DNA of 64,000 bases, from assembly GCA_017306865.1 (NCBI GenBank), contig JAFKHH010000015.1, positions 372,001-436,000 on the forward strand, written 5' to 3'. Source of the stretch: Filimonas sp. Lineage in GTDB: Bacteria; Bacteroidota; Bacteroidia; Chitinophagales; Chitinophagaceae. The first letter of the stretch is position 1, and the number at the start of each line of letters is the position of its first letter. The translations under genes were made by a program, and so were the position numbers. The notes beneath the pieces were generated by a model, which was not told the DNA's origin, did no database searches, and saw only the letters and a program-made list of their open reading frames with translations. Shown here in pieces: positions 1,391 to 10,060 of the stretch.

Positions 1391-2893
1391 TTACAATTCC
1401 ACGGCAATTACATCTACCAGGGTTGTTCTTACGGATGCAGGTACAGTAACAGATAGCTGATTGCTACTGTAACTATACTGCAATGTTTTACCCTCCTGCC
1501 CCAACAGTTTTACTGATTTTGGTTTCGTATTTACCTGTAATGTTATAGTCGTATCTTTTGCGGGCAACATATCCGCATCATATTTTCCATCGCCTTTAAA
1601 TTCACGAACTGCAAACAAATAGCGATAATTACCATTCGCAGTTGCGGGCACAGAGGCTATCTCTCCTGCGGGCAATCGCGTTGCCTTTTCGATCGAACGC
1701 TTGTTTATCGTCATCCAGTCCTGTACCAGTTTCATATTGGTATATACCTGGTCAGGAAAAACACCATCTGCAGTAGGCCCGACACCCAGCAAATAATTTA
1801 CGCCCCAAGCTTTGCAGGCGGCCAATTGCGCTAATACAAAGCCTCCGGCGCGAAACGGAATGGTATTGCTGTTTGCCCAACTGGTGGTCCATGTGTTGCA
1901 AAACTCTGCCCATATATTACCCGGGTCCTGGGTTGGTGGATTTCGCTCAAACGTGATAAAATCGCCAGTGCCATGCATACGCGGATTCATGACTATGCCT
2001 GGTTGCATTTGCCTTATTTCTTCCTGTGTTATCACTGTTCCTCCATTTGGAATAGGCGCTTTGCCATCAAACCACAATAGGTCTATTTTGCCATAGCGGG
2101 TCATCAGCTCTTTTATTTGCCCTCTTACCATTTCACCATAAGCCTGCTGGTGTTTCTGCAATGCATCGCCACTTAGTTTTGTTGTACGTGGATTAAGGTC
2201 GCCGTCTACCTGCGGCAAGGATGGATTTTTCTGATAGGCTCTTCCATATATGAACGTCATATTATCCCTGTCGAAATACCAATTGGGCGGAGAATAATAT
2301 AGGCCCACTTTTAGCCCGTATTTGCGGCAGGCATCCACAAATGGTTTGATGAGGTCTTTACCTCCCATATAGTTCTTTGTACTGAAGTCGCCATATTCGC
2401 TCGGCCACATTGCAAAGCCTTCATGGTGCCTGGTGGTAAGTACTGCATATTTAAATCCAGCCTCTTTAGCCGCTTTTATCCATTTGTCAGGGTCATAGTG
2501 TTGGGGATTAAATGACTTTGCCATTGCCCAATATTCATTGGGTGTAATAGCTGGCGGTTTACCATTCAGGTTAAAATCTTTTTCGCGTACTACGCGTAAC
2601 AGTTCAGCAGAGTCCAATGCTTTATTTACCAATGCCCTGCCGGGGATCATAGGCCAGGAAATGTCCAGGTTCTTAACAGAGGACAAGCCCCAGTGTATAA
2701 ATAACCCAAATGAGGCCTCAGGATACCACTGTGCATCAGGGTTACTGGTGTGTACTCCTTTTTTCTCGTCTATGTTGATCATACCATGTTCGGCATTTAC
2801 ATCACGCGAGTCTTTGTTGGGCTTATTGGTTTGTGCAGTAGCAATGCCTGCAGATAGCAGGCTGCAGATGAGAAGGGATTTTATATGGCGCAT
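1391..2893 (-). CDS. Alpha-L-fucosidase, GH29, secreted
   Basis: The enzyme removes terminal alpha-L-fucose from glycans by the retaining mechanism. Numbering from the upstream ATG at 2926, FGLFIHWG is at 73-80, TTRHHEGFAMW at 164-174, and LLWFDG at 283-288 with Asp287 as the expected nucleophile. The catalytic barrel is followed by a beta-rich C-terminal domain. I prefer the ATG at 2893 (500 residues), which gives a clean signal peptide MRHIKSLLICSLLSAGIATAQ. The ATG at 2926 lies inside an intergenic repeat that also occurs in other spacers. It is the last gene of the fucose operon and supplies the sugar the rest of the operon uses. The terminator follows directly. Confidence 0.92.
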   Translation of the reverse strand: MRHIKSLLICSLLSAGIATAQTNKPNKDSRDVNAEHGMINIDEKKGVHTSNPDAQWYPEASFGLFIHWGLSSVKNLDISWPMIPGRALVNKALDSAELLRVVREKDFNLNGKPPAITPNEYWAMAKSFNPQHYDPDKWIKAAKEAGFKYAVLTTRHHEGFAMWPSEYGDFSTKNYMGGKDLIKPFVDACRKYGLKVGLYYSPPNWYFDRDNMTFIYGRAYQKNPSLPQVDGDLNPRTTKLSGDALQKHQQAYGEMVRGQIKELMTRYGKIDLLWFDGKAPIPNGGTVITQEEIRQMQPGIVMNPRMHGTGDFITFERNPPTQDPGNIWAEFCNTWTTSWANSNTIPFRAGGFVLAQLAACKAWGVNYLLGVGPTADGVFPDQVYTNMKLVQDWMTINKRSIEKATRLPAGEIASVPATANGNYRYLFAVREFKGDGKYDADMLPAKDTTITLQVNTKPKSVKLLGQEGKTLQYSYSSNQLSVTVPASVRTTLVDVIAVEL

Positions 2894-2927
2894 AAGTAGA
2901 GTTTTCGAAAACAAAAATGGCTGCATT

Positions 2928-2988: not shown

Positions 2989-3771
2989 TTATTTTATCGC
3001 CCTGTCTAAATGCACGTAGCCACCATCCACATGGATCAGTTGCCCCGTAGTATGGCTAGACTTGTCTGACAGGAGAAATACGACCATACTGGCAATTTCT
3101 TCGCTGGTAGTCATTCTTTTTTCCAATGGTATTTTAGATGTAATAGCCTGTAATTTTTCTTCTTTGTCAGGCTGTTGGTTCAGCCACCATTCGTATAGTG
3201 GTGTCCAGCATTCAGCAACGATCAGGGCATTTACACGAATACTATATGGCAGTAATTCTACAGCCCACTCACGGGTAAGTGCATTACGAGCGCCATTAGA
3301 TGCGGCGTAAGCGGATGTACCGCCTTGTCCTGTTTCTGCTGTTTTAGAACCAATATTTACGATAGACCCTTTTGATTTTTTTAATGCAGGTAAGGCATAG
3401 TGTGCCATCAGGTAATAATGCACTACGTTTTTATGTAGTGATGCCATGAAGGCTTCGTAAGTACCATTTTCAAGACTAACGCCATCGTTCACACCTGCAT
3501 TGTTTACAAGACCGTCTATACGACCAAATTCTGCCAGCACTTTGTTTACTGCGGCTTCACTGGCTGCGGGATCGGTCAACTCTGCTACTACAGTAAATAC
3601 TTTACCACCACTTTGTATTATTTTATCCGCAACTTTTTTGTTGTCGTTTTCATTCCTGCCAACAATTACAGGTATTGCTCCTTCGCTTGCCAATGCGGCT
3701 ACTATGCCTTCGCCAATACCTTTGGCACCGCCTGTTACAATGACAACTTTATCTTTTAAGTTTAAGTCCAT
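2989..3771 (-). CDS. L-fucose dehydrogenase (short-chain dehydrogenase), catalytic Lys replaced by Asn
   Basis: This 260-residue SDR would oxidise L-fucose to L-fuconolactone with NAD(P)+. The Rossmann motif TGGAKGIG is at 13-20 and NNAG at 90-93. Segments such as VNDG, HYYLMAHY, TGQGGTS, ALTREWAV, SHTTGQ and VDGGYVHLDRA match my memory of the characterised Burkholderia L-fucose dehydrogenase closely. Ser142 and Tyr155 are in place. The usual YxxxK lysine is Asn159 (Y-A-A-S-N, codon AAT). The rest of the protein is intact, so this is not decay. Its position beside the lactonase fits the first pathway step. An alternative is a reductase on a related 6-deoxy sugar. Confidence 0.85.
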   Translation of the reverse strand: MDLNLKDKVVIVTGGAKGIGEGIVAALASEGAIPVIVGRNENDNKKVADKIIQSGGKVFTVVAELTDPAASEAAVNKVLAEFGRIDGLVNNAGVNDGVSLENGTYEAFMASLHKNVVHYYLMAHYALPALKKSKGSIVNIGSKTAETGQGGTSAYAASNGARNALTREWAVELLPYSIRVNALIVAECWTPLYEWWLNQQPDKEEKLQAITSKIPLEKRMTTSEEIASMVVFLLSDKSSHTTGQLIHVDGGYVHLDRAIK

Positions 3772-3780
3772 AGATATATA

Positions 3781-3862
3781 ATTTGAAAATGAGATAATTT
3801 GAAAATGAAAAAATTAAGAGGTGTACTTATTTTCAAATTAGCACACTTTCAAATTTTCAAAT
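3781..3862. repeat. Four-copy inverted repeat ATTTGAAAAT / ATTTTCAAAT
   Basis: Two direct copies of ATTTGAAAAT (3781-3790, 3797-3806) are followed by two inverted copies ATTTTCAAAT (3829-3838, 3853-3862). The last abuts the lactonase stop codon. The arrangement can form a long AU-rich hairpin between two genes of the operon. Function unknown. Confidence 0.6.
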
Positions 3863-4693
3863 TCATAAATTATAAAACTGGCTGGCATTTCCACCCCAGA
3901 CTAATTGTTTTTCATAATCAGAAAATCCTGACAAATAATTATCAATAATCTCCGCTACTTGTGCATACGCACCTGCTACCAGGCATACTGGCCAGTCGCT
4001 GCCAAACATGATGCGTTTTGTACCAAAGGCATTAAACACTACATCCAGGTATGGCTTTATGTCTTCCTGCGTCCAATGCTGCCAGTCTGCTTCTGTTATA
4101 ATGCCGGATACTTTACAGGACACATTGTCAAATGCTGCTATTTTGCGGAGATCACTCTCCCATTCCCCGATCGCTTTGTTTTTAATATATGGCTTTGCCA
4201 GGTGATCAATTACAAAGGGTTGATTAGGGAAACGGTTTACAAACTTTGCTACATTCTCCAGGTGCCTTGGAAACACGAGTATGTCGTAGGTATAATTATA
4301 CTTAACCAGTTTATTGATGCCATTTAGAAAAGCAGGCTGCAACATATACGCATCATCAGCTTCTCCCTGTAAAATATGACGGAAGCCTTTCAGCTTTGTA
4401 TGCTGCTGCATACCGGCTAACTGGTCATCAATGTCCGCCGCTTTAAAATCAATCCAACCAATTACCGCTTTTATCCAGTCGTTCTCTCCGGCTAGTTGTA
4501 ACAGAAATTCATTTTCTGCTGCAGATTGGTCTGCCTGTACTGCCACGCAACCATCTATTGATTGCTGCTGTAGCAAGGGAAGCAGGTCTGCAGGCAAAAA
4601 ATCACGCCTGATCACAGACATTTCATCCGTGATCCAGGCATGATCTTTTGCGTTATATCTCCAGAAATGCTGATGCGCATCAATTCTTTGCAT
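3863..4693 (-). CDS. L-fuconolactonase (amidohydrolase family)
   Basis: The 276-residue TIM-barrel hydrolase should open L-fuconolactone to L-fuconate. Metal and catalytic positions are visible: DAHQHFW at 5-11 with His7 and His9, VIDHLAKP at 161-168 with His164, and MFGSDWPVC at 229-237 with Asp233. This is the COG3618 type, in which lactonases for sugar lactones cluster. Its ATG overlaps the stop of the preceding hydrolase gene by 14 bases (4680-4693), which suggests coupled translation. Substrate is inferred from the operon. A lactonase for another 6-deoxy-sugar lactone is the main alternative. Confidence 0.87.
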   Translation of the reverse strand: MQRIDAHQHFWRYNAKDHAWITDEMSVIRRDFLPADLLPLLQQQSIDGCVAVQADQSAAENEFLLQLAGENDWIKAVIGWIDFKAADIDDQLAGMQQHTKLKGFRHILQGEADDAYMLQPAFLNGINKLVKYNYTYDILVFPRHLENVAKFVNRFPNQPFVIDHLAKPYIKNKAIGEWESDLRKIAAFDNVSCKVSGIITEADWQHWTQEDIKPYLDVVFNAFGTKRIMFGSDWPVCLVAGAYAQVAEIIDNYLSGFSDYEKQLVWGGNASQFYNL

Positions 4694-5537
4694 ACGCTAC
4701 TACGTTTTGCTTTGCAGTGCCTAACCCATCAATGCCCAATTCTACTACATCACCCGGTTTCAGGTACACTTGCGGATTCATACCCAATCCTACACCATGT
4801 GGTGTGCCTGTAGAAACGATGTCTCCCGGCAACAGGGTCATGAAACGGCTGATGTAAGAAACAAGGAAAGGAATATTGAAAATAAAGTCATTCGTGTTAC
4901 CGTCCTGGTATTTGTTGCCATTTACAGATAACCATAACCGCAGGTTGTGTACATCACTTATCTCATCTTTTGTAGCAAGAAAAGGGCCTACCGGTGCAAA
5001 TGTGTCACAACCTTTTCCTTTATCCCATGTACCTCCTCTTTCTAATTGAAATTCTCTCTCAGATACATCATTGTGCAATGCATAACCTGCTACATAATCC
5101 AGCGCTTCCTCTTCTGACACATAGCTTGCTTTTTTGCCTATTACAAATGCGAGTTCTACTTCCCAGTCTGTTTTCACTGAATCTTTTGGAATAACGATTG
5201 TATCGTTTGGCCCTATAAGAGAAGTAGTTGATTTGAAAAATATGATCGGCTCTGCCGGAATCGCTGCATTGGTTTCTTTCGCGTGATTTGCATAGTTCAG
5301 GCCAATGCATACTATTTTAGATGGCCTTGCCACAGGAGTGCCGAGACGCACATCATCAGCTACTACGGGTAAGCTACCTTTGTTTACTGTAATGTATGCA
5401 GCCAGGCGTGCTAATCCGTCATTCTCAAAAAATGCTTCGTTGTAATCTTCGCCAAAAGCGCTTACATCATATCTCACATCATCTATAATAACTCCGGCTT
5501 TCTCTTTTCCGGCTGCTCCAAACCTGATCAGTTTCAT
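4680..5537 (-). CDS. 2,4-diketo-3-deoxy-L-fuconate hydrolase (FAH family)
   Basis: This 285-residue fumarylacetoacetate-hydrolase-fold enzyme should split 2,4-diketo-3-deoxy-L-fuconate into pyruvate and L-lactate, the last pathway step. It has an N-terminal linker domain (RFGAAGKEKAGVIIDD), then the FAH core. GLNYANHAKE is at 79-88. Metal ligands are expected in DWEVELAFVIGK (Glu126, Glu128) and HNDVSERE (Asp157). KGKGCDTFAPVGP is at 173-185, and STGTPHGVGLG near the end is typical. Automated pipelines often call this family ureidoglycolate lyase; the fucose context makes that unlikely here. It overlaps the lactonase gene by 14 bases. Confidence 0.86.
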   Translation of the reverse strand: MKLIRFGAAGKEKAGVIIDDVRYDVSAFGEDYNEAFFENDGLARLAAYITVNKGSLPVVADDVRLGTPVARPSKIVCIGLNYANHAKETNAAIPAEPIIFFKSTTSLIGPNDTIVIPKDSVKTDWEVELAFVIGKKASYVSEEEALDYVAGYALHNDVSEREFQLERGGTWDKGKGCDTFAPVGPFLATKDEISDVHNLRLWLSVNGNKYQDGNTNDFIFNIPFLVSYISRFMTLLPGDIVSTGTPHGVGLGMNPQVYLKPGDVVELGIDGLGTAKQNVVAYAKN

Positions 5538-5706: not shown

Positions 5707-6471
5707 CTAGTTATTCAACCTGATAAACCCGCCATCTATATGATAATCGCATCCTGTAACAAACCCTGCTTCATCTGAACAAAGGTATAATACCAGGCTG
5801 GCGATTTCGTCAGGCTTGCCCATGCGGCCTATTGGCTGGCTCTTGGATAATTTCTCAAATATTTCGGTTTCGTTACCCGGATAGTTTTTGGCAATGAATC
5901 CATCTACAAATGGCGTATGCACACGTGCCGGTGAAATGCAATTGCAACGGATATTATCATTAAGGTAATCACGTGCTACAGATAGCGTCATTGCTAGTAT
6001 AGCACCCTTACTCATAGAATAAGCAAAGCGGTCTGTAATGCCTACTACTGCTGCAATAGAAGATACGTTTAAGATTGCACCTCTGCCTTTGGCTTTCATT
6101 AATGGAACGGCTGCGTATAAGCAATTGTATGCACCTTTTACATTCACGTTGAATATGCGTTCAAAATCTTCCGTTGTTGTTTTCTCCAGGTTACCAACGT
6201 GCGCTATTCCGGCATTATTAACGAGGATATCTATATTTTTTATCTGGGAAAAAACGGCCAATACCTGCTCCTGGTTACTTACATCGCAGCTATGTGCAAA
6301 TGCTTTGCCCCCGCTGTTGTGTATTTCATCCACCACTTCCTGCGCACCAGCAGCATTTAATTCTATAATATGCACTTCTGCACCCTGCTTTGCAAACAAT
6401 AAGGAAATTGCTTTTCCTATTCCACTTCCTCCTCCTGTAATGGCGGCTGTTTTTCCTGTCAGACTAAACAT
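5707..6471 (-). CDS. 2-keto-3-deoxy-L-fuconate 4-dehydrogenase (SDR)
   Basis: The 254-residue classical SDR should oxidise 2-keto-3-deoxy-L-fuconate to the 2,4-diketo acid with NAD+. TGGGSGIG at 12-19 binds the cofactor, with an acidic residue after the second strand (IIELN) that favours NAD+. NNAG is at 85-88. The catalytic triad is complete: Ser138, Tyr151 and Lys155 (Y-S-M-S-K). HIDGGFIRLN closes the protein. This contrasts with the other SDR of the operon, which lacks the lysine. It lies between the dehydratase and the hydrolase, as the pathway order predicts. Confidence 0.85.
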   Translation of the reverse strand: MFSLTGKTAAITGGGSGIGKAISLLFAKQGAEVHIIELNAAGAQEVVDEIHNSGGKAFAHSCDVSNQEQVLAVFSQIKNIDILVNNAGIAHVGNLEKTTTEDFERIFNVNVKGAYNCLYAAVPLMKAKGRGAILNVSSIAAVVGITDRFAYSMSKGAILAMTLSVARDYLNDNIRCNCISPARVHTPFVDGFIAKNYPGNETEIFEKLSKSQPIGRMGKPDEIASLVLYLCSDEAGFVTGCDYHIDGGFIRLNN

Positions 6472-6592: not shown

Positions 6593-8254
6593 TTACAATG
6601 ATACACCTCTTTTCCATGGAATAAAATCATCCTGTCCAAGCGCTACAGATTTTGGCTGAGCCTCTCCGCTTGCTACTTGTATCACATATTCCAGTATGCG
6701 CTCGCCAGCTTGCTGAATGGTTTCTGTTCCTTCAATAATATTGCCACAGTTGATATCTATGATATCCGGCATGCGATTGAACAATTTTGTGTTGGTAGAC
6801 AGTTTGATCACTGGCGTAACAGGGTTACCTGTTGGCGTACCCAGGCCAGTGGTAAACAGTACAATATTTGCCCCGGATGCAACTTCTGCGGTAGTACTTT
6901 CCACATCATTACCCGGTGTGCAGAGTAGTGACAAACCGGGCTTTGTCACTTTTTCCGGGTAGTCAAGCACATCTACAATAGGTGATGTACCGCCTTTCTT
7001 TGCCGCTCCTGCGGACTTGATCGCATCGGTGATCAAGCCGTCGCGAACATTACCAGGCGAAGGGTTCGCATAAAAACCGGAACCTGTTTCTTCTGCTTTA
7101 CTGTTGTACACACGCATCAGGTGCATGAATCGTTCAGCAGTGGCTTCATCTACACACCTGTCGCTTAACTCTTGCTCAACACCGCATAATTCAGGAAACT
7201 CAGATAAAATAACAGAACCTCCCATAGCGATCAACAAATCAGATGTATAACCAACAGCAGGGTTAGCAGAGATACCGGAAAAGCCATCGCTTCCGCCGCA
7301 CTCCAGGCCTATACAAAGTTTTGATAGCGGTGCTGGTTCCCGTTGTATATTATTGGCCTGCATCAGCCCTGCAAATGTTTGCTTTAATGCCTTATTCAGC
7401 AATTTATTTTCTGTGCCTTCTTTTTGCTGCTCCAGCATGTATAATGGTTTGCTGAAGTTAGCATCCCGTTTTTTTATTTCTTCCTGCAACATGCCTGCTT
7501 GTGCATGCTGGCAACCAAGACTTAAAATTGTTGCTCCAGCAACATTCGGATGTGTGATGTAACCAGCGAGCAACCCGCAGAGCGCCTGCGCATCCTGCTT
7601 TGTACCGCCACAACCCATTTCATGAGTAAGGAACTTTATGCCATCTATGTTTGGAAATATGCGGTTCTGCGATTTGCTTTCTTCTGTTTCCTGCAAGTCT
7701 GCACCCAGTATCTCTTCCACCGATTTGCCTGTTTTATAAAGGTCAATCAACTCTTCTGCTTTGTTGTCGTAAGCCTGTGCTTTTTTATACCCCAGCTTTT
7801 CGGTAAGCGCTTGTTTTAATACATCTACATTCCTGTTCTCACAAAAAACAAGTGGAATCACCAACCAGTAATTGCTAGTACCTACAGAACCATCTGCGCG
7901 ATGATAGCCCATAAATATTCTTTCCGTCCATTTACTTACGTCTGGTTTTGCCCAGGTAGTTTTACGATCTCCAAGATTGAAATCGTTTGCAGCATGCTCC
8001 ACGTTAGATGTTGCAATCACACCGCCTTCGGGTATTGCTTTACTTGCTTTACCAACCAGTACGCCGTACATGATCACCTGTTCGCCTTCCTGCAAAGGAC
8101 TGATCGTAAATTTATGTTTTGCAGAAACATTATCGTTCAGCGTTATTTTCTTTCCTTTTATATCTACCTGTGTTCCTTTAGGTAAGTCTTGTAATGCAAC
8201 CAGCACATTGTCGTCTTCATGAATCTGTAAGTAAGTATGTATATCCGTAGCCAT
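6593..8254 (-). CDS. UxaA family dehydratase, probable L-fuconate dehydratase
   Basis: The 553-residue protein combines an N-terminal SAF domain (about 13-85) with the altronate/galactarate dehydratase catalytic region. Signatures are GYHRADGSVGTSNYW at 116-130, HEMGCGG at 211-217, GCQHAQAG around 248-255 and GLECGGSDGFSG at 316-327. The family removes water from sugar acids with an Fe2+ centre. By sequence it would be called altronate dehydratase. In this operon the only missing step is dehydration of L-fuconate, normally done by an enolase-superfamily enzyme, so I infer that role. No uronate genes are near. Family call is firm; substrate is inferred. Confidence 0.85.
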   Translation of the reverse strand: MATDIHTYLQIHEDDNVLVALQDLPKGTQVDIKGKKITLNDNVSAKHKFTISPLQEGEQVIMYGVLVGKASKAIPEGGVIATSNVEHAANDFNLGDRKTTWAKPDVSKWTERIFMGYHRADGSVGTSNYWLVIPLVFCENRNVDVLKQALTEKLGYKKAQAYDNKAEELIDLYKTGKSVEEILGADLQETEESKSQNRIFPNIDGIKFLTHEMGCGGTKQDAQALCGLLAGYITHPNVAGATILSLGCQHAQAGMLQEEIKKRDANFSKPLYMLEQQKEGTENKLLNKALKQTFAGLMQANNIQREPAPLSKLCIGLECGGSDGFSGISANPAVGYTSDLLIAMGGSVILSEFPELCGVEQELSDRCVDEATAERFMHLMRVYNSKAEETGSGFYANPSPGNVRDGLITDAIKSAGAAKKGGTSPIVDVLDYPEKVTKPGLSLLCTPGNDVESTTAEVASGANIVLFTTGLGTPTGNPVTPVIKLSTNTKLFNRMPDIIDINCGNIIEGTETIQQAGERILEYVIQVASGEAQPKSVALGQDDFIPWKRGVSL

Positions 8255-8387: not shown

Positions 8388-8717
8388 TTATAATTCAAAT
8401 ATTTTATCCATCAGCAACCATTTCTCTCCTGCTTTAGCCTGGGGCAAAGCCTGTTGATACTTCCACATGAGGGTTTCCCACTCCTGCACTTTGGGGTTGG
8501 CAGCGTCCATAGCTCCTTTCTTTTCAAAGCTAAAGTCGTCACTCACTTCCATGATCATAAAGAGGTGGTTGGCGAGGCGGTAGATCTGCATGTTTTGAAT
8601 GCCGGAATCAGTAATACTTGCTTTAATTTCCGGCCACACAGCTTCGTGGTATTTTTCGTACTCCGCAATAAGTTGATCGTCGTTTTTCAGATCAGTTGTT
8701 AGGCAATAACGTTTCAT
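8388..8717 (-). CDS. L-rhamnose mutarotase family protein, probable L-fucose mutarotase
   Basis: The 109-residue protein is of the RhaM/DUF718 family, dimeric ferredoxin-like enzymes that interconvert sugar anomers. MKRYCLTTDLKND opens it, YEKYHEAVWPEI at 20-31 carries the conserved His24, and MIMEVSDDFSF and WLLMDKIFEL are family-typical. Length is normal for the family. It lies between the permease and the dehydratase, so it would supply the anomer needed by the dehydrogenase. It is not related by sequence to FucU of enterobacteria, so I give no symbol. Confidence 0.85.
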   Translation of the reverse strand: MKRYCLTTDLKNDDQLIAEYEKYHEAVWPEIKASITDSGIQNMQIYRLANHLFMIMEVSDDFSFEKKGAMDAANPKVQEWETLMWKYQQALPQAKAGEKWLLMDKIFEL

Positions 8718-8761: not shown

Positions 8762-10060
8762 TTAATGACTCACTAATATTTTTACATTTTTCTGTTCTTC
8801 TCCTGATGGCAATTCTACATCAGTCTGCTTGTATCCGCTGATGCCATACCAAGCTACCACTACAAAACAAACAAGGGCAACTACATATCCGTATTGAATA
8901 TTATTGGTAACATCTGCTATTTGTCCAAGCACAGGAGGCAATAAGGCGCCACCTACAATAGACATTACAATAAGGCTTGATGCAGGCTTTGTATCTACAC
9001 CAAGATTGCTGATGCCCAAAGAGAATATAGTCGGGAACATGATGCTCATAAAGAAGGCGATGCCTATCAGCGCATACACAGTTACTATACCGGAAGCAAA
9101 AATGGCAACGGCTGTCAGGCCAATATTAATAATAGCGTATGTGGCCAGCAGTTGAGTTGGTTTGAAATAACGCATTAGGAATGTACCAACAAATCTGCCT
9201 ATCATAAATGCAAGGCCGTATACGGATGCATACTTTGCCGCAGCACCTTCTGAAAGCCCGGCTGATTTAGTAACAATGAGTACGAAGAAGCTACCTACAC
9301 ATACCTGCGCGCCTACATAAAAGAATTGTGCTATAACGGCGCCGCGTAAATGTTTATACTTCAACGCATGAAATAATCCTTTGTGTTCTGCTGCCGCTTC
9401 TTCCTGGTCTTTAATATCCGGCAATTTTGTAAAATAGATCAATACTGCTACTATCAGGATAACAACACCTAAAATGAGATAAGGCGTTTTTACGCTTGCT
9501 GCTTCTGATTGCAGGTAAGTTGTTCGTGCAGCATCGGTCATTGCTGCAATCTGGTCTTTGGTTACTTCACCGCCTGAGCTAAAAAACCAATGTCCTGCTA
9601 TGGGCGCTACCGCCGCAGCAAGACCATTGAAGGACTGTGAGAAGTTTAAGCGTTGTGCGGCACTCTCTTCCGGCCCTAATATAGTTACGTACGGATTGGC
9701 TGCTGTTTCCAAAAAAGCAAGGCCACAGGCAATAATAAATAATGCGCCCAGGAAATAAACGTACTTAAACGTGTTTGCTGCAGGGATAAACAGAAATGAG
9801 CCGATGGCAAAAAACAACAGCCCAAGCAGGATACCTGATTTATAGCCATACTTACGCATAATTATACCTGCAGGAAGGGCCATAAGGAAATATGCAATAA
9901 ATATGGAGGAATCTACTAAGGAAGATTCAAGTACAGTAAGGTTAAATACTTTGCGTAAATGTGGAATTAATATCGGGTCAAGGTTGTGCACAAATCCCCA
10001 GAAAAAAAACAAAGAAGTTACCAAGATGAGTGGGAACAAATAACTGGTCTTTTTTTCCAT
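8762..10060 (-). CDS. fucP: L-fucose:H+ symporter FucP
   Basis: This 432-residue major facilitator has about 12 hydrophobic segments. It resembles the FucP subfamily: SLFFFWGFVHNLDPILIPHLRK near the start (the FucP Asp/Asn region), LALPAGIIMRKYGYKSGI as the loop between helices 2 and 3, and ETAANPYVTILGPEESAAQRLNFSQSFNG, a hallmark of FucP-like sugar transporters. It would import L-fucose released by the fucosidase. It is the first gene of the operon; 44 bases separate it from the mutarotase gene. Glucose/galactose GluP-type transporters are close relatives, but the operon supports fucose. Confidence 0.9.
   Translation of the reverse strand: MEKKTSYLFPLILVTSLFFFWGFVHNLDPILIPHLRKVFNLTVLESSLVDSSIFIAYFLMALPAGIIMRKYGYKSGILLGLLFFAIGSFLFIPAANTFKYVYFLGALFIIACGLAFLETAANPYVTILGPEESAAQRLNFSQSFNGLAAAVAPIAGHWFFSSGGEVTKDQIAAMTDAARTTYLQSEAASVKTPYLILGVVILIVAVLIYFTKLPDIKDQEEAAAEHKGLFHALKYKHLRGAVIAQFFYVGAQVCVGSFFVLIVTKSAGLSEGAAAKYASVYGLAFMIGRFVGTFLMRYFKPTQLLATYAIINIGLTAVAIFASGIVTVYALIGIAFFMSIMFPTIFSLGISNLGVDTKPASSLIVMSIVGGALLPPVLGQIADVTNNIQYGYVVALVCFVVVAWYGISGYKQTDVELPSGEEQKNVKILVSH

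Follow-up and report, generated by a model that had tools for sequence, protein, structure and literature searches.

Bacteroidota L-fucose dehydrogenases with asparagine in place of the YxxxK lysine and a coupled arginine one helix turn away

A minus-strand gene of the window (the whole 64,000-nucleotide stretch of Filimonas sp. DNA analyzed here) encodes an SDR of the L-fucose dehydrogenase family in which the lysine of the YxxxK element is replaced by asparagine (Asn159). This replacement is shared by a large set of Bacteroidota relatives and is invariably accompanied by an arginine three residues further on (Arg162), which every lysine-bearing member of our alignment lacks. We propose, at roughly even chances, that the protein functions as an NAD(P)-dependent L-fucose dehydrogenase in which the catalytic lysine has become asparagine and the cation has moved one helix turn, to Arg162.

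Results

The dehydrogenase gene and its product

The open reading frame at 2989..3771 (minus strand) translates without internal stops into a protein of 260 aa, which scores 419.8 bits over residues 1-259 against the NCBIfam model for L-fucose dehydrogenase (NF052481, cut-off 300). The protein has a predicted Rossmann fold and the TGxxxGxG and NNAG motifs of classical-fold SDRs, and we take its SDR site to comprise TGGAKGIG (13-20), NNAG (90-93), Asn115, Ser142 and Tyr155. Across a joint alignment of 209 family members, the catalytic Asn115 is found in 203 rows, and Ser142, Lys143, Tyr155 and Glu187 are present in every one. The catalytic serine and the adjacent, family-invariant lysine (Ser142 and Lys143) are encoded at 3343..3348 and the retained catalytic tyrosine (Tyr155, TAC) at 3307..3309, both on the minus strand.

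The catalytic lysine of the classical YxxxK element is absent. Read from the minus strand, the element is Y155-A-A-S-N159, with Asn159 encoded by AAT at 3295..3297, as a first-pass annotation of this DNA had reported. The candidate substitute cation, Arg162 (CGT, 3286..3288, minus strand), stands at Tyr+7, and the protein departs from the halohydrin dehalogenase pattern of arginine at Tyr+4, where it has asparagine. The PG motif that follows strand 6 in classical SDRs is also absent; the window protein reads Val185-Ala186 (Val185, GTT, 3217..3219, minus strand), and family members with lysine at position 159 (Lys types, as opposed to Asn types) mostly read Pro-Ala.

An AT-rich stretch (3772-3862) separates the lactonase gene from that of the dehydrogenase. 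Read by eye, it contains a word resembling TAATTTGAAAATGA twice in direct orientation, together with inverted copies of the core of that word, TTTTCAAATT. These repeats are possibly a regulatory or terminator-like element.

Asn159 is a lineage trait of part of the phylum

The joint alignment was built from 217 proteins, one of which (L210) was dropped as frameshifted; the remaining 216 collapsed to 207 distinct loci, and two PDB chains complete the 209 rows. Position 159 is asparagine in 157 of these distinct family members and lysine in the other 52. Such recurrence rules out a local mutation or a base-calling error in the Filimonas sequence, and orthologs are far from uniformly carrying lysine.

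Within the window genome, 29 matches to the window protein were found, 27 of them alignable at position 159. Lysine occupies that position in 25, including the overlapping loci L003 and L006, which are two separate genes; one has arginine and also lacks the tyrosine, and the only asparagine is that of the window protein itself. The genome contains a single member of the L-fucose dehydrogenase family; the SDR that matches next best shares 35% identity.

Of 395 genomes that sample the phylum evenly, 55 harbor a family member over the cut-off, at 61 places. Sixty of these places were read (G324:C19:12930 was left out of the count; G324 holds two family copies, of which one was read), and they divide into 30 Asn types and 30 Lys types. 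A further, family-level sample contributed part of its matches. The best 80 loci in a scan of named genomes are all Bacteroidota by title and all Asn types (78 distinct sequences and two duplicates), with Arsenicibacter, Pontibacter, Dyadobacter, Pedobacter, Spirosoma, Flavobacterium, Hymenobacter and Chitinophaga among the named genera; being the nearest relatives of the window protein, these loci give no estimate of how frequent asparagine is.

Matches were also present in 39 plasmid records, of which 16 were read. Four copies, on Bacteroidota plasmids, are Asn types, one from Microscilla is a frameshifted Lys type, and the 11 from Pseudomonadota and Acidobacteriota are Lys types. All Asn types thus come from Bacteroidota or from the phylum sample of the window, and the 13 rows from other phyla, which amount to those 11 plasmid loci and the two PDB chains, all carry lysine. 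The suggestion in the first-pass annotation that asparagine is a lineage trait is therefore borne out by both the phylum sample and the named sequences, with the refinement that it marks only part of the phylum, since half of the phylum-sample matches are Lys types.

Several of these copies have features of their own. The Bacteroidota plasmid genes of Asn type (L207, L211, L225 and L226, from Rufibacter, Hymenobacter and Spirosoma) have FucP nearby, and the Rufibacter plasmid is typed as mobilizable. The broken Lys-type copy (L210, 6001-6767) lies on plasmid pSD15 of Microscilla sp. PRE1. Five genomes (G170, G316, G222, G025 and G182) carry an Asn type and a Lys type at separate places, for instance L023 and L087, which leaves a division of labor between the two types possible.

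Arg162 is strictly coupled to Asn159

Arginine is found at position 162 in all 157 Asn types and in none of the 52 Lys types, which have Gln (20), Val (19), Ile (11) or Met (2) instead. Of the 260 columns, all but 159 and 162 have at least one residue common to both types. Arginine at 162 is also unusual among SDRs of the same genome, where the other 26 alignable loci have Val, Ile, Leu or Met. The first-pass annotation had supposed that another residue might supply the missing charge, and the alignment points to Arg162 as a specific candidate.

Position 185 follows the types as well: all 157 Asn types have Val there, and the Lys types have Pro in 36 rows, Ile in 14 and Val in 2. Residue 146 (Glu in the window protein, 3334-3336) is acidic in 151 of the 157 Asn types (Glu in 121, Asp in 30) versus 6 of the 52 Lys types, and it might pair with Arg162.

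A degenerate DNA pattern for Tyr-Ala-Ala-Ala/Ser-Asn-Gly-x-Arg matched 40 times, in 39 of the 395 phylum-sample genomes. Known fucose dehydrogenase places account for 29 of these matches, and the 11 elsewhere represent no excess over chance, because a backward-pattern control matched 20 times; among the six of these 11 that were read by eye, none was recognizable as an SDR.

Selection and descent

Lysine and asparagine codons differ only in their third base. Over the 157 Asn types, residue 159 is encoded by AAC in 80 and AAT in 77. Columns 159, 162 and 185 were masked to infer a quick tree of 148 rows, made up of an outgroup, 103 of the 157 Asn types and 44 of the 52 Lys types, the family rows having been thinned by identity. 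The 103 Asn rows (AAT 53, AAC 50) require at least 34 synonymous switches at codon 159, and no Lys row falls inside an Asn group. The codon for residue 162 changed at least 49 times, encoding arginine every time. With so many synonymous switches, no Lys row among the Asn groups and an unvarying Arg162, both residues are maintained and not drifting, in agreement with the earlier judgment that loss of function is unlikely.

Residue 159 has to switch twice between Asn and Lys on the quick tree, where branches with good support impose both switches, and likewise twice on a careful 69-row tree. The main Asn group comprises 100 rows (SH-aLRT 88 on the 148-row tree), and near it stands a Lys group drawn mostly from the same phylum, including one Acidobacteriota plasmid copy. 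A second Asn group, L097-L099, joins eight other Lys rows with SH-aLRT support of 98 on the quick tree and of 99 and 95 on the careful tree. We do not claim that asparagine arose twice by convergence, as the trees would have it, because an AU test (p 0.192) fails to reject a tree in which the Asn types arose only once. With only two state changes and a single origin admissible, shared ancestry alone could explain the coupling between positions 159 and 162.

The members of the second group (L097, 5001-5789; L098, 5001-5780; L099, 4998-5774) are divergent and have lost other family residues, but nonetheless retain Asn159, Arg162 and Val185. L097 and L098 adjoin genes for a GH116-like protein and a CobW-like GTPase (families named by eye).

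Predicted structure

An AlphaFold2 model computed from 41 sequences (the window protein and the named loci) has a mean pLDDT of 90.2 and a pTM of 0.89, and it places residues 155, 159 and 162 on one predicted helix, 153-172. Comparison of this model with solved structures by Foldseek and VIA-align returned as best match the L-fucose dehydrogenase of Burkholderia multivorans (4gkb_B; Z 36.0, 2.0 A over 252 residues), followed by FucX of Campylobacter jejuni (6ds1_A; Z 35.5). An Asn-type profile at E 1e-60 matched only these two enzymes among solved structures, and since both have lysine in the sequence alignments, no solved Asn-type structure was found.

We also built an ideal-helix model, a crude one that comprises neither cofactor nor neighboring residues, using 11 Lys rotamers. 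With arginine at Lys+3, a guanidinium nitrogen comes within 0.31 A of the modeled Lys NZ site at best (median 2.94 A). Median distances for arginine elsewhere are 3.32 A at Lys-3, 3.67 A at Lys-1 and 2.60 A at Lys+4, the last better than Lys+3; Lys+1 reaches 3.89 A at best, and Lys-2, Lys+2, Lys+5, Lys+6 and Lys+7 all stay at least 5 A away. In this model, helix geometry would let Arg162 reach the site of the lysine charge, a capacity that several other positions would share.

The fucose gene cluster

The dehydrogenase gene lies within a run of minus-strand genes whose predicted products fit oxidative breakdown of L-fucose. Upstream of it, starting with the most distant, are genes for the L-fucose:H+ symporter FucP (8762..10060; TIGR00885, 385.8 bits, above the cut-off of 280.4), a RhaM-family mutarotase that is probably an L-fucose mutarotase (8388..8717; PF05336), a protein of the altronate/galactarate-dehydratase family that is probably L-fuconate dehydratase (6593..8254; PF20629 and PF04295, with TIGR03248 far below its cut-off), a second SDR with a normal YSMSK motif that is probably 2-keto-3-deoxy-L-fuconate dehydrogenase (5707..6471), a protein of the FAA-hydrolase family that is probably 2,4-diketo-3-deoxy-L-fuconate hydrolase (4680..5537; PF01557, with NF053535 at 370.6 bits, below its cut-off of 500), and an L-fucono-1,5-lactonase-like amidohydrolase (3863..4693; PF04909, with NF052480 at 305.7 bits, below its cut-off of 400). 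Downstream follows a GH29 alpha-L-fucosidase gene (1391..2926; PF01120, 6.2e-60). All of these genes are on the minus strand. With FucP over its cut-off, the dehydrogenase gene is found among fucose catabolic genes, and the family model and the neighbors together uphold its earlier designation as an L-fucose dehydrogenase gene in an intact cluster.

The surroundings of 131 loci spanning no less than 7 kb (101 of Asn type and 30 of Lys type) were surveyed for five pathway genes: the lactonase, the FAA hydrolase, the second SDR, the altronate-type dehydratase and FucP. At least two of the five are nearby in 79 of the 101 Asn-type loci and in 25 of the 30 Lys-type loci; none is nearby in seven Asn-type loci (L097-L099 and four others) and one Lys-type locus. 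The Lys-type loci L105 and L079 are surrounded by most of the cluster genes of the window. Given this similar fucose gene context around both, the two types look interchangeable in one pathway.

Discussion

The closest solved fold to the window protein is that of the B. multivorans L-fucose dehydrogenase (PDB 4gkb, 4glo and 4gvx), 53-56% identical in structural alignments. The triad described for known members is Ser, Tyr and Lys, namely Ser140, Tyr153 and Lys157 in the B. multivorans enzyme's own numbering (PMC11293516). That enzyme and the window protein have Ser, Tyr and Lys143 in common, but the former retains the triad lysine and has Gln at the position of residue 162 and Pro at 185. FucX (Cj0485; PDB 6drr and 6ds1), 47% identical to the window protein, oxidizes L-fucose in vitro with a preference for NADP+ (PMC6946681), and likewise differs, with a YASAK element, Gln where the window protein has Arg162, and Pro at 185. 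Human HSD17B14, which oxidizes L-fucose with NAD+ (PMC11293516), shares the fold at 31-33% identity and has a normal Ser141-Tyr154-Lys158 triad; its K158A variant has been crystallized with NAD (6h0m), and our literature search found no paper on the activity of that variant. Closer to the window, Lys-type L-fucose dehydrogenases of the same phylum, such as L105, L079 and L087, share family and kind of cluster with the window protein but pair Lys159 with Ile, Val and Val, respectively, at 162.

We suggest that Ser142 and Tyr155 would bind L-fucose at its C1 hydroxyl and remove the proton there, with hydride transfer to the nicotinamide, and that Arg162 would reach back to provide the positive charge that lowers the pKa of Tyr155. 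Asn159, alone or with Arg162, would retain the hydrogen bonds to the nicotinamide ribose, and Val185, replacing the usual proline, may create room. Arginine is evidently able to fill the role of the lysine in SDR relatives, since halohydrin dehalogenases such as HheC use it in place of lysine, in the motif S-X12-Y-X3-R (PMC11976700). In these enzymes, however, the arginine sits exactly where the lysine would be and the motif for nucleotide binding has been replaced, whereas in the window protein the arginine stands three residues on and that motif is intact.

Among the other readings, the one that survives best, though we consider it unlikely, holds that the lysine is dispensable. Ordinary alcohols are less acidic than an anomeric hydroxyl, so that Tyr155 might need little help, with Asn159 merely keeping the ribose hydrogen bonds and Arg162 playing a structural part by filling space, forming a salt bridge (for which acidic residue 146 could be the partner) or making an interface contact. 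The substrate is indeed a lactol, as it is for other SDR sugar dehydrogenases (PMC12133307). Yet in one SDR that acts on an anomeric hydroxyl, sulfoquinovose dehydrogenase, both Tyr and Lys bind to the hydroxyls of the ribose, and the lysine has been proposed as a base assisting the tyrosine in substrate deprotonation (PMC12133307). Moreover, the Lys types of the family have kept their lysine, and a structural role by itself leaves the mutual exclusion of Arg162 and Lys159 unexplained.

That exclusion is equally unaccounted for if the charge in Asn types comes from Lys143, the neighbor of the catalytic Ser142, and Arg162 is secondary. The complete conservation of Lys143 speaks for this idea, but it extends equally to the Lys types and bears no relation to whether Lys159 was lost; because Lys143 is invariant in both, it probably serves a family-wide purpose, such as sugar binding, and we regard it as an improbable source of the charge.

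We find it somewhat less probable still that Asn types oxidize another sugar, or are weak enzymes with another role while a different dehydrogenase performs the fucose step. The five genomes with both types and the neighbors of L097 and L098 would fit such a role; the window genome, on the other hand, has only one family member, and its gene is set among those for FucP, the lactonase, the hydrolase and the dehydratase. Although the YxxxK lysine is regarded as essential in SDRs, a dead gene or a sequencing error as a general explanation is refuted by 157 distinct sequences that have asparagine, by the use of both of its codons and by a site that is not drifting.

Returning to a displaced cation at Arg162, we propose, a shade more tentatively than for the window protein itself, that these proteins constitute a "with-no-lysine" branch of classical SDRs: a large subfamily in which the cation would have moved from Tyr+4 to Tyr+7, asparagine occupies the old site and SDR chemistry would be kept, the two Asn groups being perhaps independent inventions. 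WNK kinases, with their relocated catalytic lysine, offer a parallel. The family, the fold and the pathway are known; for the Asn159/Arg162 variant we found no description, and a literature search, which had most subscription journals outside its scope, returned no SDR with asparagine for this lysine and a displaced arginine.

SDRs form one of the largest superfamilies of enzymes; the YxxxK lysine is their standard textbook feature, and its presence serves as a criterion for calling an SDR active. If the reading proposed here is true, a widespread and selected subfamily that lacks the lysine and carries a coupled arginine would mean that the charge of the SDR active site can move, and would caution against labeling lysine-less SDRs inactive. 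The two types, Lys with a residue other than arginine at 162 and Asn with Arg, form a natural pair in like gene clusters, in which the role of the lysine could be tested by swaps of two or three residues.
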